Assembly: GCA_012270555.1 (NCBI GenBank)
Contig: JAAXIC010000003.1
Coordinates: forward strand, 117,681 to 155,235
Direction: 5' to 3'
Source: Chloroflexota bacterium
GTDB taxonomy: Bacteria > Chloroflexota > UBA11872 > VXOZ01
DNA length: 37,555 bases
Within the stretch, counting starts at the first letter, position 1. Every line of letters starts with the position of its first letter. Shown here in pieces: positions 14,729-30,784 of the stretch. The notes beneath the pieces are model-generated. The model made no database searches and had not been told where the DNA came from. It worked only from the letters and a program-made list of their open reading frames with translations. A program made the translations under genes and the position numbers.

Positions 14729-14805
14729 GGGAAGATTCTCCAGGCCAGCAGGAACTACATCCCCAGCCATTTACAGGATTGGGATGACATTGGCGATCGG
14801 ACAGC

Positions 14806-15852
14806 TCAATTTGATAAATGCAAAGCCTCTAGGTCATAGGTCTCCAATAACGGAATGTCCTTGCTCCATGTCAGGCGGATTAAACACGATTCTAGGAAAT
14901 CCCGTAGAGATTCGTCCTGTTCTACCCAAGGCCCTTCTACAACTAAGTGACCACGAATGGTTTGAGAATCATCATCGGAGTCCATCCACATGTAGTGTAA
15001 AACCTGTCCAAGCCCTGTTCTCACCTGGTGGACGACTGACTCTGGCGATGTAGACTTCACTTCGAAGTAAATGTCGGCATCGGCGGCCTCCACAATGCAG
15101 TCAACAAGCCCATCGTACCTTGGGATTAATCCTATCTGAACAAGCCGAGCCCTAAGTTGATTCAAGATTTCTTGGTGCCGAGAAGTGCTAGGTGTATGTC
15201 CTGCCGTAGCTACATCCTCATTTATCCCCTGCTGGACTGCTTCCCGTGTCAGTAGATGGCGCCGACGAGGGACGGAGGGCCTCAGTGCTATGGTTGGGCC
15301 AAGGGCCTGTCGCGCGGCATTCTGATAGACGGGAGCCGGACCTGGCAGTTGTGATGTCACATAGTTGCGGCGCAGGAATGATTCCGCTATTCCTAAGTCA
15401 GGCCTCGAGTCACCGTCTCGTCTTGCGCGGGCGACATTAGTCCTTACTTGCTGGGCTATGGCATCCCATGGAACCGCAACCGACGAAGAGAAGTCATGAG
15501 AACCGCACGTCCCTGCTAGCTGCTGGGCTGATTCGGAGTCTAGGCAACGTACTTCGTAGCGGGGTGCGATTCTTGTGGTGCTAGGAAGCCTGATCGGAAC
15601 GGCATTGGAGGAGTTGTCAAAGAAGACCGCTGAGCGAGGACCACCTATCTTCAAATCTATACGATGACGAAATGTGTCGAGAGACACCTCCAAGACGGAC
15701 AGCCGGGCCAGCAACCTGCTGGACTCGCCTTCGGTGAGTACATAGATGTCATCCCCTACTCGGATGCGATGTCCATCTCCAGATGCTGCGATAGGCAATC
15801 CACCTTCCGCATTCCATTTCTCATTCGGGCTGGAGATAAGTTGAAATGGCAT
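14806..15852 (-). CDS. PD-(D/E)XK-type nuclease of the restriction island
   Basis: I do not recognise the full 348-aa protein, but residues 225-290 show a PD-(D/E)XK signature: E228 in a helix, D251 (LVDC), then E264-x-K266 in FEVKS, and a helix with Q276...GQVLHYMW (Q283, Y287), as in restriction-type nucleases. The N-terminal 200 residues (IRVGDDIYVLTEGESS, then alternating strands) form a separate domain, perhaps for protein or DNA contact. It is the last gene of the ParB-like/SNF2/nuclease arm, 22 bases after the helicase stop. In a restriction reading it would supply DNA cleavage, with the helicase driving it. The absence of other nuclease genes in the island supports this. GC is lower than in the flanking genes. 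Confidence 0.65.
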   Translation of the reverse strand: MPFQLISSPNEKWNAEGGLPIAASGDGHRIRVGDDIYVLTEGESSRLLARLSVLEVSLDTFRHRIDLKIGGPRSAVFFDNSSNAVPIRLPSTTRIAPRYEVRCLDSESAQQLAGTCGSHDFSSSVAVPWDAIAQQVRTNVARARRDGDSRPDLGIAESFLRRNYVTSQLPGPAPVYQNAARQALGPTIALRPSVPRRRHLLTREAVQQGINEDVATAGHTPSTSRHQEILNQLRARLVQIGLIPRYDGLVDCIVEAADADIYFEVKSTSPESVVHQVRTGLGQVLHYMWMDSDDDSQTIRGHLVVEGPWVEQDESLRDFLESCLIRLTWSKDIPLLETYDLEALHLSN

Positions 15853-15874
15853 TCTCTTGGAGCCCCCATACTTC

Positions 15875-17587
15875 CTATGTAGAGGGTGGCATATCCAAAG
15901 TCCGTCTCAGTAGTTCTATCATCTGAGCTCGTCCAGGCTTTCCAATCTGCTCAAGCACTTCTTCAGACAGCTGCATCTTTGCCATTGTGTTCTCAAACAC
16001 GTCTTCTTCAATGGTGTTCTTTGCTATAAGGAACCAGTACTTGCAGTCTCTGGTCTGGCCCGTCCGATTGATCCTAGCCATACTCTGTGTGAAGTTTCTC
16101 GACACGTCATCCAATGACTCGTAAATCGCATTACTCGCCGCCGTCAGGTCGATTGAGCTAGCGCCCACTTGGATTGTCGCTACGAGTAGCCGGCACTCTG
16201 GCTGCGTGAGATCAGCGGGCGAACCTTCACCTCCGCCTATCATGAGCGATGCGCCGTAAGGATCCGCATACCTGTCGCGTAGCATGGATGCAGTATCCCG
16301 GAACCTAGTCCATACGACTGCCTTCTCATTGGGATCTTCCAGAATAGTCTCGAGCAAACTATCCAATTGAAGCCACTTGGCAGGGGGATCAAAGACGGGG
16401 CTAGGCAAACTGCGGTGACCTGGGTCGGAGCATAGGCGCAATAGATTCTTGCGTCGGGACATGACTTGCCCAAGTTTGCTCGCATATGTCCGGTCGTCCA
16501 TCATTTCCAATTCCGAGAGAAAGTCTCTGGCAAGCTGGTCATACTCGTACCTTTGCGGCGGCGAAAGCTCGACGTAGACAGGCATAGCGACCTCTGGCAT
16601 CTTTCTAGGGTTTTCGCGCTGCAGGTAGTGAATCCCTTCCTCTAGTTCATGTACTACGACCAGAGCATCTTGAGTACGGTCACCCGTCAGTGCCAACCCG
16701 ACAGGGTAACCTGATAGAACAGTTAGTTGATGCTCGTAATCGGAAGGGGAATTGGGTGCTGGAGTCCCAGATGCGATCCAACACCTGCCGCATTCCTGCC
16801 GGATTTCCATCGCCGCCCTTGATCGTTGGGCTGCCGCGTTCTTTATCAGATCGCTCTCGTCGAAGATTATGATGGGGCGTTCTACTCCTTCAATGCGTTG
16901 CGCCCATGACTTAATTGGATATTGGTCACTTGCTAGCTGGCCGTAATGGACAATCAGCCACCTCGGATTAGACTGAAAAACTGCCAATCGCCGTTGTTTG
17001 GTTCCCGACGCTGCCGCCACATTGTTCTTGGTTTGACCGTCCGGTAACCACCGTGCCAATTCTGCTCTCCAAGGTGTCTCTATGGCCAAGGGTCGCTCAG
17101 CCACTACAAGCACACCTCTAACAACCCCTCTTGACAGCAGTTCGTGGGCCGCAGCGATCATTGTGCCGGTCTTGCCCGAACCGGGCTTCCAGAATAGTGC
17201 AAAGCGCCGGACTCCCGGCGCTGACATTAGTTCCGCAGCCTCTCGTTGCTCCTCGAAAGGCTCTAGCCCGAGACTCGCCACAGAATCCAAACGGTGGTGA
17301 AGTCTTGAACTCTGACCTTCAACGACTTCCCTCAGTCTATTATCTTCCTGGACTTGCGCTAGTCTCTCACGGGCCCTAGCGTCCCATTCGGGTGAAAACT
17401 GTTCAAGTGCTCCCACCAGTTGTTGTATATGTTGGGAGCCCACCGCCCATTGGCCTCTTGATGAGACTGTGGAGAACTTGACCCTCGCGTTTCTGAGGAC
17501 CCTTTGTATTTCACTCGGCGAAAGACCGTCTTTAGGTTCCAATCGAACGTCGATGGTCTCTCGCCTGACATTCAGGCTAACCTTCAT
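15875..17587 (-). CDS. SNF2-family DNA helicase/translocase
   Basis: The 570-aa protein carries the SF2/SNF2 motifs in order: KPGSGKT Walker A (134-140), VVAERPL (Ia region, from 161), DESD box (243-246) in place of DEAH, SGTPAPN motif III (273-279), and ARINRTGQTRD motif VI (about 504-514). The N-terminal 100 residues are not part of the motor and may be an adaptor. SNF2-type motors move along duplex DNA without strand separation and are used by several restriction and defence systems. Its start overlaps the stop of the ParB-like gene by four bases (ATGA), so the two are translationally coupled and likely work as a complex with the nuclease downstream. Confidence 0.88.
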   Translation of the reverse strand: MKVSLNVRRETIDVRLEPKDGLSPSEIQRVLRNARVKFSTVSSRGQWAVGSQHIQQLVGALEQFSPEWDARARERLAQVQEDNRLREVVEGQSSRLHHRLDSVASLGLEPFEEQREAAELMSAPGVRRFALFWKPGSGKTGTMIAAAHELLSRGVVRGVLVVAERPLAIETPWRAELARWLPDGQTKNNVAAASGTKQRRLAVFQSNPRWLIVHYGQLASDQYPIKSWAQRIEGVERPIIIFDESDLIKNAAAQRSRAAMEIRQECGRCWIASGTPAPNSPSDYEHQLTVLSGYPVGLALTGDRTQDALVVVHELEEGIHYLQRENPRKMPEVAMPVYVELSPPQRYEYDQLARDFLSELEMMDDRTYASKLGQVMSRRKNLLRLCSDPGHRSLPSPVFDPPAKWLQLDSLLETILEDPNEKAVVWTRFRDTASMLRDRYADPYGASLMIGGGEGSPADLTQPECRLLVATIQVGASSIDLTAASNAIYESLDDVSRNFTQSMARINRTGQTRDCKYWFLIAKNTIEEDVFENTMAKMQLSEEVLEQIGKPGRAQMIELLRRTLDMPPST

Positions 17588-18768
17588 TCGACTGCATTGG
17601 CGTCATTAGTTTCATCGGTGGAAACTGTCGCTTGGGCGATGACGCGTTGCAACGCGCTCTCCAATTGAGATCTTAAGACCGCCGGGATTTCCGCTAGTTC
17701 AACCGATGTCAAATTATCGATTTGTTTAACTATCTCTTCTAGACGCCTTTCCACAGACAGGTTGCGCGTAGCCTCTTCGCGACGCGCCTCGGCTGTGGCG
17801 CGGTCGAAATTCGCTCGGAGTCCTGTGCCGGCCAACCCCTCGCCCTCCAAGAAAATCTGGGTTGCTTGAGGGTTTCCGTATATCTCCTCAAGCCTACGTA
17901 CGGAAGCAAAACTGGGGAACAGTTCTTGTTGGATACCACGGAAAAGAAGTGCCTTGAACTCAGGTTCAGAGAAGACATTTTTCGTACGGTAGGTATCGTT
18001 GGCTTGGCGAAAGTACTGAAAGTTCTTGTTTATCTTCGCTTCCAGATCATCCTCATTGTCTTCGTCGCCATAGTCGGCCCTGAATTCCTCAATGAGGAGC
18101 ATTGTGTTAATCCGGTTTCTAATCTCGGTAGTGTTGAAGCGGGGAAACTCCCTCCGTACCAGTCTCCTTATTTCCAATTCTTGCTCTTGAGGAAATTGAT
18201 TGAACAACTCTTGGTACCTGCGATAGATTCGCCCATTGGTAACCAGCTGAGGCCATTCTTTTTTGAGGGATTCGGCATAGTTCTCTTGAATTATGATCGA
18301 CTGCCTGTGAAGATCTGGAGCCCCTTCTGGAAGCACAAACATCGGTGTGCGTGCCAGTAGGTGGAGCTGCTCGTTGGTGGCTCCGCCTCTATCGGAAAGA
18401 GCCCACATCACGGCAAACTTCCTGCGGTTGCCGTCAATGAGTGTCCCATCCCAAGTAACTATAATTGGCTCGCGGACTCCGTTCCGTTTCACATCCTCCC
18501 CAAGCTCTGGGATCGCGAAGCTCCCGTCAACGTAGTCCAGCATCAATTCGAGCATTTCGTCGTCGTCTGGGAAGACGTCAACAGATCGGTGTCGGGCATT
18601 CCGCCACCGGCTAAGAATCATGTCGATTCGGGGATTCTCTACCCAGCCCTTGATATGGCTCAAGTCACCTTCGGTTCGATAGAGAGGAATTTGAATACCG
18701 TTGAAATGCCTTGTTTCAAGCTGCCAGCCAGCTTTGTCGAGAACAAAGCAAGGTCTGTCATTGCCCAT
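17584..18768 (-). CDS. ParB/Srx-like protein of the restriction island
   Basis: The 394-aa protein has a ParB/sulfiredoxin-like N-terminal domain: VKRNGVREPIIVTWDGTLI followed by DGNRRKFAVMW, the G-x-R-R nucleotide-binding motif of this fold (around residues 104-120). The C-terminal 200 residues are helical and charged and end in a probable coiled coil (ERRLEEIVKQIDNLTSVELA). ParB-like proteins bind CTP or ATP and can act as clamps or sensors on DNA; similar modules occur in DndB- and DpdB-type genome-modification systems. I prefer ATG 18768 over the GTG at 18777 because GAGAGG sits about seven bases before the ATG and overlaps the GTG. It heads the minus-strand arm, so it is the first gene controlled by the shared intergenic region. 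Confidence 0.7.
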   Translation of the reverse strand: MGNDRPCFVLDKAGWQLETRHFNGIQIPLYRTEGDLSHIKGWVENPRIDMILSRWRNARHRSVDVFPDDDEMLELMLDYVDGSFAIPELGEDVKRNGVREPIIVTWDGTLIDGNRRKFAVMWALSDRGGATNEQLHLLARTPMFVLPEGAPDLHRQSIIIQENYAESLKKEWPQLVTNGRIYRRYQELFNQFPQEQELEIRRLVRREFPRFNTTEIRNRINTMLLIEEFRADYGDEDNEDDLEAKINKNFQYFRQANDTYRTKNVFSEPEFKALLFRGIQQELFPSFASVRRLEEIYGNPQATQIFLEGEGLAGTGLRANFDRATAEARREEATRNLSVERRLEEIVKQIDNLTSVELAEIPAVLRSQLESALQRVIAQATVSTDETNDANAVE

Positions 18769-18824
18769 ATCTAGCACCTCTCACGATCTTCCATGCTGCT
18801 TCTCCCCTAAATCACTTTGAATGC

Positions 18825-18855
18825 AGTATAGGGTAGCGAGACCCGCATCGCTACC
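18825..18855 (-). promoter_or_regulatory. promoter and 8-8-8 palindromic operator for the restriction arm
   Basis: GGTAGCGA (18832-18839) and TCGCTACC (18848-18855) are perfect 8-bp arms around an 8-base spacer. TATACT (minus strand, 18830-18825) abuts the near arm and is the best -10 box for the ParB-like gene about 57 bases downstream. The palindrome covers the -10/-35 spacer and the -35 position, ideal for repression by the XRE protein. No strong -35 is seen. Confidence 0.6.
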
Positions 18856-18871
18856 AAGTTATCGGCACAGA

Positions 18872-18935
18872 GCATGATTCGATTGCGCCACACGCAAGAG
18901 AAGTGCATATATAATGCATACCTATTGCATGATTC
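18872..18935 (+). promoter_or_regulatory. promoter and repeated motif for the methylase arm
   Basis: TATAAT at 18910-18915 precedes the XRE start by about 88 bases. Around it are TGCAT (18904-18908), ATGCAT (18914-18919) and TGCAT (18926-18930), the first two forming TGCAT-ATATA-ATGCA. GCATGATTC occurs twice as a direct repeat, at 18872-18880 and 18927-18935, bracketing the promoter. This looks like a multi-site controller region of the kind used by C proteins. The -35 box is poor, as expected for an activated promoter. Confidence 0.5.
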
Positions 18936-19002
18936 ACGAAACTTCTCTAGAATCGCCGTAGAGCAATGTTCCTACCCTTCATGGATTGAGTGTGGGGCAG
19001 CT

Positions 19003-19230
19003 ATGAATGGAAATCTCAGACGCCTTCGGGAAGCTCTGGCTCTATCCAGACGTGAACTGGCCAGACGCTCGCGCGTCGATGAGAGCACGATCTATCGCGC
19101 CGAGCACGGTTTGACAGTTCTACGTCCGAGTACGATTCAAAAATTGGTTAGGGTGCTGAAAGTTTCGCCTACCGAGATTACTCAGGCTGACGGAATAGCA
19201 GATGGAGATGTCAGAAGGCGAGAGCAGTGA
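19003..19230 (+). CDS. XRE-family regulator, likely controller of the restriction island
   Basis: A 75-aa single-domain helix-turn-helix protein: LRRLREALALSRRELARRS, then RVDESTIYRAEHG (recognition helix) and a closing helix LVRVLKVSPTEITQAD. Size and fold match controller (C) proteins of Type II restriction-modification systems and Cro/C1-like repressors. ATG 19003 is used; the frame is open to 18874, but that extension would be read through the promoter elements. Its stop overlaps the methyltransferase GTG by four bases (GTGA), so regulator and methylase are made together. It likely binds the palindrome at 18832-18855 and/or the repeats at 18872-18935. Its sequence resembles the C-terminal domain of the glycosylase two genes on. 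Confidence 0.85.
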   Translation: MNGNLRRLREALALSRRELARRSRVDESTIYRAEHGLTVLRPSTIQKLVRVLKVSPTEITQADGIADGDVRRREQ

Positions 19231-20471
19231 CTACGCCGACAGTCATATCGCTTTTTACTGGTGGCATGGGCCTCGACCTAGGGTTCGAAAACCAAGGATT
19301 CACTATTAAGGTCGCCTTGGACAACGACACCGCTGTTGAGGCTACGATTCGCAAGAATGGTCGTTCCTTCCCTGTTTTGACGAGTAATGTATCGGATGTG
19401 ACCACCCCTGATCTTCTCAGGTCAGCTGGCCTTCCAGTCGGCGGGGCCACAGTGTTAACAGGGGCTCCACCATGCGAACCCTTCACTACGGCTGGAGCAA
19501 GGAATGGATTCCAGGATCACCGTGCCGGTGCAGTCCACTCGTTCATTCGTATTGTCCGTGAATCTCGACCCGAGTATTTTGTCTTCGAGGAAGTCCCGGG
19601 ATTCCTTAGGGCTGCGAAGCAGCACATATCCTTCTACAAGCGATCCAGAATGCAGGACAAGGATTTACACCCCGACTACAGATTGGGGTCAGCCTTTGAC
19701 GAAGTGATGAAGGACTTTAAAGACCTCGGATACAATCTCAGCTTCGATCCTGAGAACCCCAAGGCATCGCTTCTCAATTCTGCGGACTTCGGCGTCCCAC
19801 AGAAACGTATCCGGTTTGTACTGATTGGGGCACGGGAAGGCCCAGCTATAGAACTCCCCAAGCCTAACCACGGTGCCCCAGACTCGAAGGAGGTCCAAGA
19901 GGGTGTGAGGAAACCGTGGCGCACCCTCAGAGACGCGTTGAAGGGGCTAGACTCTGATGGAGATGAGCGCGTAAACTTTCCGGAGAAATGGGGCCAGTAC
20001 CTCGATTTAGTCCCAGAGGGAGGGTGTTGGCGGGATCTGCCGGAACACTTGCATGTGGTTGTACTTGGGGGTGCCTACGATGATGGTTCAGATCCAATGA
20101 CCGCAGGAATGAAGGGTGGCAGGACAGGCTTCTTGCGTAGGCTCTCGTGGGACAAGCCTGCCCCCACACTGGTTGACCGTCCTACAAACAAGGCCAACTG
20201 TCTGTGCCATCCAGAGGAGACACGACCTCTATCGGTCAAAGAGTACGCAAGAATTCAAGGGTTCGAGGACGACTGGATTCTCTCTGGGTCACTTTCGCAG
20301 CGGTACCGGCTGATTGGCCAAGCCACGCCTGTCTGGTTAGCGGCTGCTATCGCTACCAAGGTACTTGAACATCGGATGGGCGCGTTACGTGGCAACGAGA
20401 GCACTCCAACACTGAAAGTAGAAGATGTGGCAACCCAGCAAGAGCTACCAAGAGAGCTTGTCCTTCGCTAA
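19227..20471 (+). CDS. DNA (cytosine-5) methyltransferase
   Basis: The 414-aa enzyme shows the C5-methylase motifs: ISLFTGGMGLDLGF (motif I, residues 7-20), GAPPCEPFTTAG (motif IV, catalytic C83), EEVPGF (motif VI, E121-E122-V123 in place of ENV), QKRIRFVLIGAR (motif VIII, 192-203), and a C-terminal ARIQGFEDDW with YRLIGQATPVWLA (motifs IX-X; GQAT-P replaces the usual GNAVPP). The target-recognition region (about 205-310) is variable and gives no sequence specificity. It methylates host DNA at the 5 position of cytosine, protecting it from the partner nuclease. GTG start, four-base overlap with the XRE gene, and 47-base overlap with the following glycosylase gene. Confidence 0.92.
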   Translation: MTTPTVISLFTGGMGLDLGFENQGFTIKVALDNDTAVEATIRKNGRSFPVLTSNVSDVTTPDLLRSAGLPVGGATVLTGAPPCEPFTTAGARNGFQDHRAGAVHSFIRIVRESRPEYFVFEEVPGFLRAAKQHISFYKRSRMQDKDLHPDYRLGSAFDEVMKDFKDLGYNLSFDPENPKASLLNSADFGVPQKRIRFVLIGAREGPAIELPKPNHGAPDSKEVQEGVRKPWRTLRDALKGLDSDGDERVNFPEKWGQYLDLVPEGGCWRDLPEHLHVVVLGGAYDDGSDPMTAGMKGGRTGFLRRLSWDKPAPTLVDRPTNKANCLCHPEETRPLSVKEYARIQGFEDDWILSGSLSQRYRLIGQATPVWLAAAIATKVLEHRMGALRGNESTPTLKVEDVATQQELPRELVLR

Positions 20472-21315
20472 TCTAGTGCTTCAGTGGGGAGTCCAGAACT
20501 TCAGTGAGTTCCCGTGGCGTCTCAAACGATCCCCTTATGAGGTACTCATAGCCGAGGTGCTACTTAAGCGGACGACCGCAACTGCCGCCGCACGGGTCTA
20601 TCAGAGCTTTCTTGACAAGTATCCCTCCTTGCAGCACATTGCGTCGGCTCCTGAAGAAGAACTGGTTCGTGCTCTGTCCAATGTAGGACTCCAGCACCAG
20701 AGGGCTCGATCCATTAAACGACTGGCTAGCTGGCTCCTGTCAAAGCACAGGGGCGCTGTTCCCGATAACCTAAAGGATCTGATGGAAGTCCCGGGGCTGG
20801 GTGACTATAGTGCTACCGCGATTCTGTCCTTCGGGTACGGTGTCCAGATAGCTGTTCTAGACACGAATGTTGAACGCATTCTACTTAGAGTCTTTGAAAA
20901 CGCTCTGCCGCCTCGTCCTTCTCAGCGGATTCTGCGTGAGGTCGCGCAATTCTTGCTGCCAAAAGTGAGACATCGCGATTACAATTACGGACTCTTGGAT
21001 CTTGGGAGACTGATTTGCAGGTATGCCGATCCCAGATGCGGTGAATGCCCCCTTACATCCCTCTGCGACTTCTACAGCAAATCAGCCGGAGAGTTATCTA
21101 GTCGGATCGTGAGAGAAAGTAAGGCGAGCTATGCCAGTAGGTTAAGGGAGATTAGGCGCAGCCGTGGATTGAGCCAAAGACGGCTTGCTGAGATCGCCAA
21201 CGTGTCAAAGCTAACCATAATCCGCATTGAGACTGGCAAGACATCGCCGCGCCAGGAGACTCTGCAAAAGCTAGGAAAGGCCCTCCAAGTGTGCCCTAGC
21301 GAGTTGTCTGGTTAG
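20425..21315 (+). CDS. HhH-GPD DNA glycosylase ([4Fe-4S], Mig/MutY-like) fused to an XRE domain
   Basis: The 296-aa protein has a MutY/EndoIII-type core: LQWGVQNFSEFPWR near the start, the helix-hairpin-helix EVPGLGDYSATAIL (121-134), catalytic Asp D146 in VLDTNVERIL, and the iron-sulfur knot C198-x6-C205-x2-C208-x5-C214. The position that is Lys in EndoIII and Ser in MutY is Tyr here (Y128). As I recall, that matches the archaeal plasmid T:G mismatch glycosylase Mig.MthI, which is also encoded beside a C5 methylase. Residues about 225-295 are a second XRE helix-turn-helix (SRGLSQRRLAEIANVSKLTI), an unusual fusion. The likely job is removing thymine from T:G mismatches left by deaminated 5-methylcytosine, as Vsr does elsewhere. 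A TTG at 20458 is an alternative start. Confidence 0.82.
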   Translation: MWQPSKSYQESLSFANLVLQWGVQNFSEFPWRLKRSPYEVLIAEVLLKRTTATAAARVYQSFLDKYPSLQHIASAPEEELVRALSNVGLQHQRARSIKRLASWLLSKHRGAVPDNLKDLMEVPGLGDYSATAILSFGYGVQIAVLDTNVERILLRVFENALPPRPSQRILREVAQFLLPKVRHRDYNYGLLDLGRLICRYADPRCGECPLTSLCDFYSKSAGELSSRIVRESKASYASRLREIRRSRGLSQRRLAEIANVSKLTIIRIETGKTSPRQETLQKLGKALQVCPSELSG

Positions 21316-21368
21316 AGTTATTCCTGCAGACTTGCCTACTTTGAGCTCCGGCTTTACCGATTTATTTC

Positions 21369-21478
21369 GCGCTCTCGACCATGTGCAGCAGTGACACCTC
21401 GCGCGGCTCTCCGAGGGACCATTACGGGCCGCTGTCGTCGCCTGGCTTGCGGCGCAAGCCCTTCAGCATTGGGCGCAG
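21369..21478 (-). pseudogene. fused fragments of a ybjQ-like gene and a winged-helix regulator
   Basis: On the minus strand 21410-21369 reads EPREVSLLHMVESA, and its DNA matches the real ybjQ gene at 30579-30620 in about 38 of 42 bases. Immediately upstream (21478-21429) a frame reads LKGLRRKPGDDSG, the LRRKLGDD segment of OmpR-type winged helices. A stop separates the two. Neither piece can make a full domain. Together they fill much of the 239-base gap after the glycosylase gene. Confidence 0.5.
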
Positions 21479-21554
21479 GCGGTAGTTCCAGGGCACCGTC
21501 TCTCCAAACCGAAAAGTACCGCAGATGTCAGAATCTTGCCATCTCGGGAGCGGG

Positions 21555-22892
21555 TCAAAATACCTTCGGAATGAGTAGGTGTGGGACCTCTTTGGTATAG
21601 CGATCCCAGTCTTTTCCGTATTTCTTCTTGCAGCGCGCGATATCGCGGCGCGCGCGATGGAGGATCATGATTACGAAAAACGTCACATAGAAGTAAGGCA
21701 AGACATTTTCGAAGCCGCAGATCAGGCCCCATGATAGCGCCATGAGGATGTCCGCGGTGTAGTGAGGCTTGCGGACGTAGCGCCACCAGCCGTCGATGAG
21801 CAGCTTGGAGCCGACCGCGGTGTCCAGGTAACGAGGGTTCTTGAGCGTGTCCCAGGGCAATTGCGGAATGGTCTTGCGTTTTACGTACGAGCCATTGATC
21901 TGCATGCGGAAGTGATTTCGTTGGCCGTTTGCGGTGTCGAAAACGTAGTAGGCGCCGAAGAGGAGCACGAAGCAGAATATCGTGTGCGGCAGCGAGAGTT
22001 CGAAAGGCGGTCGGGACGCGATGTACATGGAGTTGAAGCAATACACGAAGGGGACGCCGGCGAGGTTCCAGAAGATCAGCATCCATCCCCACTTTTCGTG
22101 GAAGATGTCCCAGGTCGTAGGGATGCACTCTTCGCCCTTCATGCAGGCGTTGGCATAGAGGAAGTGGGCTACCACCATGAAGATCATGGGGACACTCACC
22201 GAACCGTGCTCGGCGAACTGGTGCGCGGCCCCGCTGGCCGTCAGCAGAAAGAGCGTGAGCCAGGACACGCGAATTTCCGCCCACATCTTCAGGTCGAGCG
22301 CCCCGATGCGTGGGTTGAGCCACGCACCCATGAAGAAGTCGTACAGGAAATTACCTGACATGCGCTCGGCGTTGCCTGTGATCTTTGCTCCAATGTGCAC
22401 CGCGAGTGCGATCGCGTTGGCGCTGACTATCGCCGCGATCATGAGCGCCCCGAACTGTTCGTAGATCGTCTGCAAGGGGAAAATGCCGGAGAAGTGCAAT
22501 AGGGCCACGACGGCCAACGTGAGCCACCAGGCGGTGTATGCATTGCAGCGGTAGACCAACTGATTGCCGCCGCGCGATGGGATCGGCAACCCTCTGATTT
22601 CCAACCCCGGCAAGAAGGCCGCCATCAACCCTTGCGCGACCAGGAATCCCAAGTAGAGCGCGAACGTGCTCAACGACGGCATTGCATGTGCAACGATTAG
22701 GTCCCAGTTTCTCGCGAAGAACGGACCCAGATCGGAGATTCCCACCGGATAGAAGATAGCCCCGTCGTGGAAACGCCACGCGATCCAGAGGTAGAGCAGC
22801 AATACGTGGGAGAGGGTGATGATGACGCCCGCCCCGGGCGCTCCCCCGAACTCGCGCGCGGTCTCGCTGCTCTTGTCTGCGGTCATCGCCAT
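21555..22892 (-). CDS. ERG4/ERG24-family sterol reductase homologue
   Basis: This 445-aa polytopic membrane protein (about nine or ten spans) ends with a strongly conserved region: LLIDGWWRYVRKPHYTADI, then ALSWGLICGFENVLPYFY, then RCKKKYGKDWDRYTKEVP and IPKVF. This pattern is the C-terminal signature of the delta-14/delta-24(28)/delta-7 sterol reductases (ERG24, ERG4, DHCR7), which reduce sterol double bonds with NADPH in the membrane. Bacterial homologues exist (Coxiella and Methylococcus-like bacteria come to mind), but no sterol synthesis gene (squalene epoxidase, oxidosqualene cyclase) is present in this window. It may act on hopanoid, scavenged sterol or another polyprenoid. The N-terminal 200 residues are less typical. 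ATG 22892 or 22886 are both possible starts; no strong Shine-Dalgarno is seen. It is flanked by regulator fragments. Confidence 0.8.
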   Translation of the reverse strand: MAMTADKSSETAREFGGAPGAGVIITLSHVLLLYLWIAWRFHDGAIFYPVGISDLGPFFARNWDLIVAHAMPSLSTFALYLGFLVAQGLMAAFLPGLEIRGLPIPSRGGNQLVYRCNAYTAWWLTLAVVALLHFSGIFPLQTIYEQFGALMIAAIVSANAIALAVHIGAKITGNAERMSGNFLYDFFMGAWLNPRIGALDLKMWAEIRVSWLTLFLLTASGAAHQFAEHGSVSVPMIFMVVAHFLYANACMKGEECIPTTWDIFHEKWGWMLIFWNLAGVPFVYCFNSMYIASRPPFELSLPHTIFCFVLLFGAYYVFDTANGQRNHFRMQINGSYVKRKTIPQLPWDTLKNPRYLDTAVGSKLLIDGWWRYVRKPHYTADILMALSWGLICGFENVLPYFYVTFFVIMILHRARRDIARCKKKYGKDWDRYTKEVPHLLIPKVF

Positions 22893-23414
22893 AATTTGCT
22901 CAGTTCACCACTGTGGCCCGCAAGCCGTGGATGTCACGCCGGTCGCCAAATCACATCTCTTGCCGTGGAGTGCCTTAGGCCCCGCCCGCTAGGATCAGGC
23001 CATCGACTCCTCCCGATGTCGGCAGAAGCCGAACACCCACGCTGCCAGACCTATGGGCCGGCAACAGACTCTGTCAGTCTCCGCGCGGCTGAAGCGGCCC
23101 TTTCGATCAGGTCACTAAGGAAGCCGCAGCACACCCTCAAGAGGTCCTGTAGCAATGAGAGACCCTTCAACCGGTTGTGCGGAGGCTCGTTGCGGGCCAT
23201 CCCGGACTGACAGGCCCTTTCCTTAGACAAAATCCTCCCGCCGAAAAGTTCGCAATCCGGCCTTACACGGCCCACCAGAAAAGAAATTCCTCAGTATGGC
23301 CCACGGTAGTTGGTACCTAGTCCCGCCACTGAGTAACATAATTCTGCCGGTGAGTAGGAACCGTCCGAGGCTGGACGGGAATTTGGGTCAAGACTATGCA
23401 AGCACAGTCGGCGG
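22893..23414. other. intergenic region with repeat copy B and no clear gene
   Basis: About 520 bases upstream of the sterol reductase. It contains dispersed repeat copy B (23233-23278). A minus-strand frame beginning at ATG 23200 could encode 49 aa (MARNEPPHNRLKGLSLLQDL...), but it has no known motif and a weak ribosome site, so I do not call it a gene. Near-repeats of GGCCCAC and CTAGTCnCGCC also occur after copy A, suggesting the repeated unit may be longer in degraded form. Confidence 0.5.
23233..23278. repeat. 46-bp dispersed repeat, copy B
   Basis: TCCTCCCGCCGAAAAG...CACGGCCCACCAG aligns with copies at 13901-13946 (about 34/44) and 28268-28313 (34/46) by eye. All three copies are intergenic and end in GCCCACC. 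Confidence 0.6.
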
Positions 23415-23567
23415 TCAACTGTTGGGCTTCGGTTTCTTCTCCTGCGGCATGCGGTAGCCGACGCGAGGCTCGGTGAAGATGTAGGTGGGGTTGTGGACAT
23501 TCTCTCCCAGCCTGCGCCAGAGCTTGCTGACCATCGTGTGCATGGGCCGTAGTTTGCCGCCCGCCAT
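23415..23567 (-). pseudogene. C-terminal remnant of an OmpR-type response regulator
   Basis: The minus-strand frame reads MAGGKLRPMHTMVSKLWRRL, then GENVHNPTYIFTEPRVGYRM, then a basic tail and TGA. The segment R-x-L-G-E-N-x-x-N-P-T-Y-I-F-T-E-P-R-V-G-Y-R-M is the second half of the winged-helix DNA-binding domain of OmpR/PhoB regulators (recognition helix, wing and terminal strand). The receiver domain and the first half of the winged helix are missing, so the 50-aa piece cannot bind as a regulator. Two further broken pieces of the same domain lie at 21429-21478 and 24260-24369. Confidence 0.75.
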
Positions 23568-23602
23568 GAGGCAGATTCCCTGTTACGATAGAGTGCCCCC
23601 GC

Positions 23603-24217
23603 TTATGCACTTGATGGTCTTAGTGGCTCGAACACATACCCCTTTACGTTGCCATCGGATTGATCCTTCATGTGAATCAAGAACATATTCGGGTTGTTTA
23701 GAAGCTTGATCTTGTGCGAGTTGAGCAACTTGATGATGAGGTTCATCTCCTCAGGTATAGCTTTCAGCCAATAGTCGTAGTCCATTGGAGGTCCTAGCGG
23801 ATTCTTTGCGTGTAGAATCTCGCCCAATCTGCCGTAGAGTTCGCCGAACATTGCTTCTGTCAAGAAGCCTTCAGCTAGGTTCTTGATGTCTGACTTCACG
23901 GGTCCGGTCATGGGCACCTCGATCACGGGCTGGGGATAGAAGTCGGGATTCACTGTCCTCAGCCTCTTGAGGATGTCGTTGGCATTCCAGGCATTTCGCA
24001 ATTCCCTTAGGGAGCCATTCCAAATGTCTTGATTTGCCACTAAGGAGCCCAAAGCAACCAATTCAAGAATCTTGCGGACCTGTAGGCATGCCGAATCTAT
24101 GGCTGCCGCTTGATAAAGTGCATGATGGGGTTGACCGAGAAAATGCTCAACGACATTCGTCCGTTGTTTGACTTCTTCCATCACCTGACAGTATTTGTTC
24201 AACTCTAGGTCGGACAT
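23603..24217 (-). CDS. uncharacterised protein, possibly HEPN-like (204 aa)
   Basis: The product is helical and soluble. ATG 24217 is chosen because AAGGGGAAC lies just ahead; the frame is open to 24259, but that extension (EKPPSASVSPKG) runs out of a winged-helix fragment. The central helices contain QAAAIDSACLQVRKILELVA, and later YGRLGEILHAKNP, with R130-x5-H136 matching the Rx4-6H motif of HEPN RNases. I recall hypothetical proteins with a similar LHA-x-NP motif, but no function is established. Composition is lower in GC than its neighbours. It has no operon partner: the nearest genes on either side are remnants. A HEPN role is a suggestion only. Confidence 0.5.
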   Translation of the reverse strand: MSDLELNKYCQVMEEVKQRTNVVEHFLGQPHHALYQAAAIDSACLQVRKILELVALGSLVANQDIWNGSLRELRNAWNANDILKRLRTVNPDFYPQPVIEVPMTGPVKSDIKNLAEGFLTEAMFGELYGRLGEILHAKNPLGPPMDYDYWLKAIPEEMNLIIKLLNSHKIKLLNNPNMFLIHMKDQSDGNVKGYVFEPLRPSSA

Positions 24218-24259
24218 GTTCCCCTTCGGTGAAACGGATGCACTTGGCGGCTTCTCCAC

Positions 24260-24369
24260 CCTCGGTATGCGGTTGCCTACGCGCGGCTCTGCGCGGAGCT
24301 AATTCGGCGCGCCAGCTTACTTGGGATGCCGCCGCCGTCGCCCAGCTTGTGGCGTAGCCTTTTCACTCT
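24260..24369 (-). pseudogene. frameshifted winged-helix regulator remnant
   Basis: Minus strand 24369-24330 reads RVKRLRHKLGDGGG, as in the OmpR-type LRRKLGDD segment, and 24289-24260 in another frame reads EPRVGNRIPR, the degraded form of EPRVGYRMP. A stop and a frameshift separate the parts. The remnant runs in frame into the leader of the 204-aa gene downstream. Confidence 0.6.
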
Positions 24370-24489
24370 AGTACACACCGGAATCGAGCCACTGGAGTTG
24401 TCCTGGCCCGATATTCCCTTTAGTGGTTACTCGCGTGCGGCCGCCGACCTTTTGCCTCAAATTGGCTGTCGGCAAGTCTTAGATTCTGT

Positions 24490-30469: not shown

Positions 30470-30784
30470 TCAGCCTATCTTGACCGCCGTGCCGTAGGCG
30501 ACGATTTCGGCCGATCCCTGCGCGACGCCCGCGGTGATGAATCGCGTGCCCACAATGGCATTGGCGCCCATCTTCTCCGCGCTCTCGACCATGCGCTGCA
30601 GTGACACTTCGCGCGCCTCTGCCAGCAGTTTCGTGTACTCGACTACCTCGCCGCCGACGACGTTACGGAAAGCTGCCATAATGTCCTTCCCAATGTGTCG
30701 GGAGCGCACGGTGCTGCCGCGCACCAAGCCTAACGTCTCGACGATTTCGGCGCCGGGGATTGTGTCAGTTGTGGTTACGATCAA
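30470..30784 (-). CDS. YbjQ/UPF0145 family protein
   Basis: The 104-aa protein matches the YbjQ (DUF74, putative heavy-metal-binding) family: IVTTTDTIPGAEIVETLGLV, followed by the conserved GSTVRSRHIGKDIMA, then GGEVVEYTKLL, MVESAEKMGANAIVGTRF and YGTAVKI. YbjQ proteins form pentameric rings; their function remains open. The start is TTG 30784: TGGAGG lies seven bases upstream and the TTG overlaps the stop of the small membrane gene (TTGA), giving translational coupling. A partial duplicate of its 3' half is at 21369-21410. Confidence 0.85.
   Translation of the reverse strand: MIVTTTDTIPGAEIVETLGLVRGSTVRSRHIGKDIMAAFRNVVGGEVVEYTKLLAEAREVSLQRMVESAEKMGANAIVGTRFITAGVAQGSAEIVAYGTAVKIG

Follow-up and report, generated by a model that had tools for sequence, protein, structure and literature searches.

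A candidate multi-subunit, ATP-dependent restriction–modification system with a ParB-like protein and an SNF2 motor in a Chloroflexota genome

In ATP-dependent restriction–modification (R–M) systems of the CglI/NgoAVII kind, the nuclease is of the B3/PLD type and the ATPase of the DEAD/Z1 type. The nuclease and the helicase-like ATPase are separate proteins that must interact (PMC4267653, PMC5737866). ParB, SNF2 or DUF3883 proteins are treated in the context of other systems in passages of three further papers (PMC10853773, PMC12839542, PMC3710099). Here we describe a block of six genes in a 37,555-nucleotide stretch of a Chloroflexota bacterium genome (assembly GCA_012270555.1, contig JAAXIC010000003.1, positions 117,681–155,235; the whole stretch is called the window below). 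One arm of the block encodes a ParB-like protein, an SNF2 motor and a predicted nuclease, and the divergent arm encodes an XRE regulator, a C5-cytosine DNA methyltransferase and a DNA glycosylase. This block is probably a complete, unnamed, ATP-dependent multi-subunit R–M system, and its ParB–SNF2–nuclease core recurs with DNA methylases in distant genomes.

Gene content of the two arms

An earlier note on the window had described six genes in two coupled arms that share one control region, and a check of the open reading frames (ORFs) found every ORF, overlap and gap to be exact (Table 1). In the minus arm, which runs from the ParB-like gene through SNF2 to the nuclease gene, the first two genes share a 4-nt ATGA overlap (17584–17587) and a 22-nt gap separates the second from the third. 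The plus arm runs from the XRE gene through the methylase to the glycosylase gene, with a 4-nt GTGA overlap (19227–19230) followed by one of 47 nt. The XRE ORF can be extended upstream to 18874 (18874–19230); the ATG at 19003 is the more likely start, giving a protein of controller size. The control region between the arms contains short inverted repeats, and no sigma-70 consensus was found in it.

Table 1 Features of the six-gene block (window coordinates)
Feature	Length	Position	Strand	Basis
Predicted PD-(D/E)XK nuclease subunit	348 aa	14806–15852	−	ORF, C-terminal motif, weak homology
SNF2/SF2 DNA motor	570 aa	15875–17587	−	Pfam, homologues, SNF2 tree
ParB/Srx-superfamily-like protein	397 aa	17584–18777	−	Motif, Brevefilum homologue, profile match
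Divergent control region separating the arms		18778–19002		Set by XRE start at 19003
XRE/HTH_3 regulator, controller-protein-like	75 aa	19003–19230	+	Pfam HTH_3
C5-cytosine DNA methyltransferase, M.SinI-like		19227–20471	+	Pfam PF00145, homologues
MIG-type HhH-GPD [4Fe-4S] DNA glycosylase with C-terminal XRE helix-turn-helix		20425–21315	+	PDB best match 1kea

The motifs pointed out earlier (SNF2 helicase motifs, C5-methylase motifs, a PD-(D/E)XK-like signature and G-N-R-R) are all present. The SNF2 protein matches Pfam SNF2-rel_dom (5e-8) and ResIII (2e-7) and carries the motifs GSGKT, DESD, SGTPAPN and QSMARINRTGQT. The ParB-like protein contains D-G-T-L-I-D-G-N-R-R-K-F-A, which includes the G-N-R-R motif and fits the GxxRxxA pattern of ParB/Srx N-terminal domains. 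A profile of six homologues (A3) gave a weak match to PDB ParB structures (7bnk/7bnr/7o0n), weak matches to PHROG ParB were also obtained, and the protein matches none of the Pfam, PADLOC or NCBIfam models. It is a putative DNA-loading or DNA-recognising subunit. The third protein of this arm, without a match in Pfam, PADLOC or NCBIfam, bears the nuclease signature D251...E264-V-K266 in a C-terminal domain that is 26% identical over 68 aa (pairwise E 3e-8) to a 481-aa protein encoded directly downstream of a C5-methylase in another Chloroflexota genome (G043). AlphaFold, run with a single sequence for the nuclease and two sequences for the ParB-like protein, gave models with a predicted local distance difference test score of ~40, too poor to use. 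At the G043 locus (L158, 64–3752), the C5-methylase and the 481-aa putative restriction protein are inserted between two partial copies of a VOC-family gene, which resemble a long target duplication.

In the plus arm, the XRE regulator matches Pfam HTH_3 (9e-12) and is 39% identical to the C-terminal helix-turn-helix of the glycosylase. The methylase (Pfam PF00145, 1e-46; best PADLOC model DrmMII) has motif IV as PCEPF, with the catalytic PC intact, and EEV in place of ENV in motif VI. It is 34–39% identical to plasmid methylases adjoining SinI-family endonucleases, the closest of which come from Pseudomonas, Acinetobacter, Vibrio and Treponema. As the alignment with these relatives extends through the target-recognition region, a SinI-like site of the GGWCC type is predicted. 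The earlier statement that a C5 methylase requires a restriction partner went too far, since C5 methylases are also found as orphans.

The glycosylase matches Pfam HhH-GPD (3e-14) and contains an iron–sulfur (FeS) cluster motif, CX6CX2CX5C. Its best PDB match is 1kea (E 3e-43), the G-T mismatch repair enzyme Mig.Mth, compared with 1e-31 for MutY. The residues V45 and Q182, on which MutY specificity depends, correspond to A50 and L187 in Mig.Mth (PMC2714593). At the first position the window protein has Ala, as in Mig.Mth, and Mig Tyr126 is kept; at the second it has Tyr, so the pocket is not identical to that of MIG. Judged by its HhH-GPD domain, FeS cluster and MIG-type pocket, the protein is a MIG-type T:G-mismatch glycosylase. 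MutY- and Nth-like genes are present separately elsewhere in the genome, and the enzyme is most plausibly an accessory for deamination repair. A MIG-like glycosylase 39% identical to it lies beside a C5-methylase and an NgoFVII-type endonuclease on the Caldicellulosiruptor plasmid pCALKR01 (L187, 1735–4654).

Recurrence of the core and genomic setting

A first search with the ParB-like protein among 400 Chloroflexota genomes returned one distant relative, in Brevefilum fermentans; a contig scan with a two-row ParB alignment likewise returned Brevefilum only, owing to the choice of pattern, and viral contigs searched for relatives yielded nothing. The Brevefilum locus encodes, on one strand, a C5-methylase–HhH-GPD fusion, a sigma-70-region-4-like protein, a ParB-like protein, SNF2 and a 157-aa ORF with a PD-DxK-like motif (D...DAK). 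Identity to the window proteins is 43% for the methylase, 27% over 429 aa for SNF2 and 29–33% for ParB. Identity between the fused glycosylase and that of the window is just 26%, and the fused enzyme looks Nth-like, not MIG-like, which suggests that repair enzymes were recruited separately next to the C5 mark in the two loci. The sigma-70-region-4-like protein (L006, 5311–5994), between methylase and ParB, is perhaps the control gene of that cluster.

SNF2 profile searches widened the set, with a score gap separating the upper proteins from lower-scoring controls. Four genomes above the gap (G337, G249, G257 and G555), and a fifth found through ParB (G546), share the gene order ParB-like protein, SNF2, NOV_C/DUF3883-type nuclease, and every one of these clusters includes a DNA methylase of the N4/N6 type. 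A DNA methylase thus accompanies ParB and SNF2 in 7/7 Chloroflexota loci with usable flanks (C5 in two, N4/N6 type in five); a glycosylase is also present in two of them, and the order ParB, SNF2, nuclease holds across all seven. No ParB-like neighbour was detectable at any of the 21 SNF2 control loci with lower scores. When 34 SNF2 proteins were placed in a maximum-likelihood tree, every ParB-linked one fell on one side of a 100/100 branch, a split that is supportive but not independent because the controls were picked by their lower profile score and it is therefore partly built in. The window protein, on a long branch, is sister to that of Brevefilum (96/97). A short contig of G301, another genome of the window's genus, carries ParB, nuclease, SNF2 and ParB. 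ParB-domain genes at three further loci (L017–L019) were rejected as relatives, as they lie in other settings without the trio.

Outside Chloroflexota, SNF2 searches led to ParB–SNF2 pairs on plasmids of Rhizobium, Mesorhizobium, Kozakia, Streptomyces, Priestia and Enterococcus. The Priestia locus has ParB and an SNF2 protein whose N-terminal domain is a PLD nuclease, with a C5-methylase encoded divergently from them. Upstream of ParB, SNF2 and DUF3883, the Rhizobium locus encodes a type II restriction endonuclease-like protein and Vsr. A C5-methylase, Vsr and a GIY-YIG nuclease are also encoded in Mesorhizobium; they lie beyond an insertion sequence and may be a separate R–M system. A Nostoc helicase match was discarded as part of a much longer plasmid helicase of a different family.

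The earlier note had asked whether the two arms co-occur in other genomes: both are found together in the distant Brevefilum and, in outline, in Priestia. Since the cluster recurs, chance adjacency of the six genes is untenable. The proposal of the six-gene set as the R–M system stands in part: the arms recur, but the natural unit is a ParB–SNF2–nuclease core that pairs with varied methylases (C5, N4/N6) and nucleases and extends beyond the six-gene set. The overall interpretation given earlier is to that extent partly supported.

The lower GC content and the transfer that had been suggested for the block also hold. Its GC content is 52.7%, versus 58.9% across 603 kb of its own genome, where only ~1% of 6.5-kb windows are as low. 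Synteny with two genomes of the same genus ends at window position 14769–14771, which is 35 nt away from the stop codon of the nuclease gene, and returns at 23302–24467. At the same site, one of the two carries an island with a HerA-like ATPase, PLD and AAA proteins, and the other a 1051-aa N6-methylase-like protein and a small PD-(D/E)XK-like protein, as identified by motif reading. By this comparison, the site (~14770–24330; L144, L145) is a hotspot that collects differing defence-type cargo with a common left boundary, into which the locus was transferred. Next to the island, the variable region also contains an ERG4/ERG24-type sterol reductase gene (21555–22892), which G301 shares. A 43-bp segment on the right-hand side of the island (21368–21410) repeats part of a conserved region (30578–30620) with 91% identity.

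Proposed mechanism and alternative explanations

We propose that the methylase would mark self DNA with 5-methylcytosine at a SinI-like site and that the glycosylase would excise T from T:G mismatches arising by deamination of this mark. The XRE controller may delay the restriction arm. In that arm, the ParB-like protein, SNF2 and the nuclease would form an ATP-dependent complex that cleaves unmethylated sites: the ParB-like subunit would load on or recognise DNA, the SNF2 motor would translocate or remodel it using ATP, and the predicted PD-(D/E)XK nuclease would cut, so that unmarked incoming DNA is destroyed.

This R–M reading is favoured by the cognate methyltransferase, with its catalytic PC motif and EEV variant of motif VI, and by the conservation of the arms together across distant genomes (Brevefilum, Priestia and the five Chloroflexota loci with N-type methylases); in Brevefilum both arms recur with methylase and glycosylase fused. 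Several points weigh against it, apart from the selection of controls in the SNF2 tree. The ParB homology is weak (profile E 0.002), the nuclease call consists of a short, weak alignment plus a motif, and the Brevefilum nuclease candidate has no detectable homology to the window nuclease. Over 603 kb of the genome, GGWCC reaches 0.73 of its expected frequency, and it is equally under-represented (0.66–0.74) in a class relative and two genomes of the same genus, where the set was not found. Its rarity is therefore uninformative about the system, and restriction-site avoidance was rejected as evidence. CAGCTG is strongly depleted, at 0.15 of expectation in the window's genome (L080–L111) and 0.05 in the same-genus genome G109 (L112–L123). 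A further point against is the Kozakia plasmid, where ParB, SNF2 and DUF3883 have no methylase in the stretch fetched; because of such copies, the core may also act alone.

The Kozakia locus also speaks for a different explanation, in which the trio is a stand-alone anti-plasmid or anti-phage defence that senses DNA topology or replication and only happens to neighbour an orphan C5-methylase and a glycosylase in the hotspot. So does a looser alphaproteobacterial plasmid group (Bradyrhizobium, Rhizobium, Mesorhizobium and Roseomonas), in which two or three ParB-like proteins accompany a nuclease and SNF2, with DGQHR (DndB/DpdB-like) and GHKL ATPase genes as neighbours, in most cases radical SAM genes too, and no classical methylase. 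The presence of a methylase at every Chloroflexota ParB–SNF2 locus with usable flanks, of a glycosylase at two of these and of the divergent C5/ParB–SNF2 layout again in Priestia argues against this explanation, and we consider it unlikely. The multi-ParB/DGQHR loci are possibly an undescribed DNA modification system in their own right. Loci that combine two or three ParB-like genes with SNF2 and a small PD-(D/E)XK-like protein were seen in alphaproteobacterial and same-genus genomes (L004, 4295–9425; L013, L014, L015; L026).

ParB/DUF262 relatives function in GmrSD-type modification-dependent enzymes, and the minus arm could by analogy be a type IV-like complex attacking foreign modified DNA, with the C5 arm a separate element. 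Pfam, PADLOC and NCBIfam revealed no known reader domain for modified bases in the proteins, the consistent methylase partners argue for self-marking and an enzyme cutting 5-methylcytosine DNA would endanger its own host, which makes this very improbable. Least credible of all is that the glycosylase itself restricts, excising bases at unmethylated sites like PabI while the minus arm processes abasic DNA: restriction glycosylases have precedent in the PabI family (PMC4357717, PMC10273834) and the gene overlaps the methylase gene and encodes a DNA-binding helix-turn-helix, but the active-site residues are MIG-like, HhH-GPD is unrelated to the PabI fold, and the mismatch-repair enzyme Vsr is encoded close to related cores in Rhizobium and Mesorhizobium.

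Beyond the window, we tentatively suggest, at somewhat less than even confidence, an unnamed ATP-dependent restriction class spanning Chloroflexota, Pseudomonadota, Actinomycetota and Bacillota, in which the ParB-like subunit, possibly a nucleotide-switched sliding clamp, recognises unmodified DNA and drives the SNF2 motor, and in which nucleases (PD-(D/E)XK, NOV_C/DUF3883, PLD) and methylases (C5 or N4/N6) are interchangeable. If so, the ParB fold, known from chromosome segregation, would be placed at the heart of a restriction enzyme, and an SNF2-driven architecture would join the few known ATP-dependent R–M classes. As the core is modular and some cultured bacteria (Rhizobium, Priestia, Enterococcus) carry it on plasmids, it is testable now, and the adjacent methylases predict which DNA marks to look for.

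Comparison with known systems

The earlier note had held the gene set to be unlike any named system, and none of those searched matched. No description of the combination was found in the literature searched, in which one may have been missed and to which REBASE did not belong. Membership in the Dnd/Dpd, DISARM, SinI and CglI/NgoAVII systems was rejected in each case on a defining feature. Dnd/Dpd systems also combine a ParB-superfamily protein with an SNF2 motor (DndB/DpdB, DpdE), whereas the modification in the window is C5 methylation, and among the window proteins Pfam and PADLOC detected neither a DGQHR/DndB domain nor genes for sulfur or deazaguanine modification. The window methylase scores best against DrmMII of class 2 DISARM and SNF2 is weakly like DrmD, but DrmA, DrmB and DrmC were absent from a PADLOC scan of the six proteins. 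The methylase resembles those adjoining SinI in SinI/AvaII-type type II R–M systems (GGWCC); an ATPase-containing multi-subunit arm stands in place of the SinI-type endonuclease, for which none of the six proteins gave a match in Pfam, PADLOC or NCBIfam. The glycosylase, nearest to Mig.Mth and adjoining a C5-methylase as do Mig.Mth and the V proteins (Vsr) of C5 R–M systems, differs in its fusion to the C-terminal XRE domain. CglI/NgoAVII appears most like the block in logic, pairing a methylase with separate nuclease and helicase-like ATPase proteins. The parts differ: no PLD, B3 or Z1 Pfam match was obtained for the window proteins, the motor is of SNF2/ResIII type, and the ParB-like subunit and the MIG glycosylase are additional.

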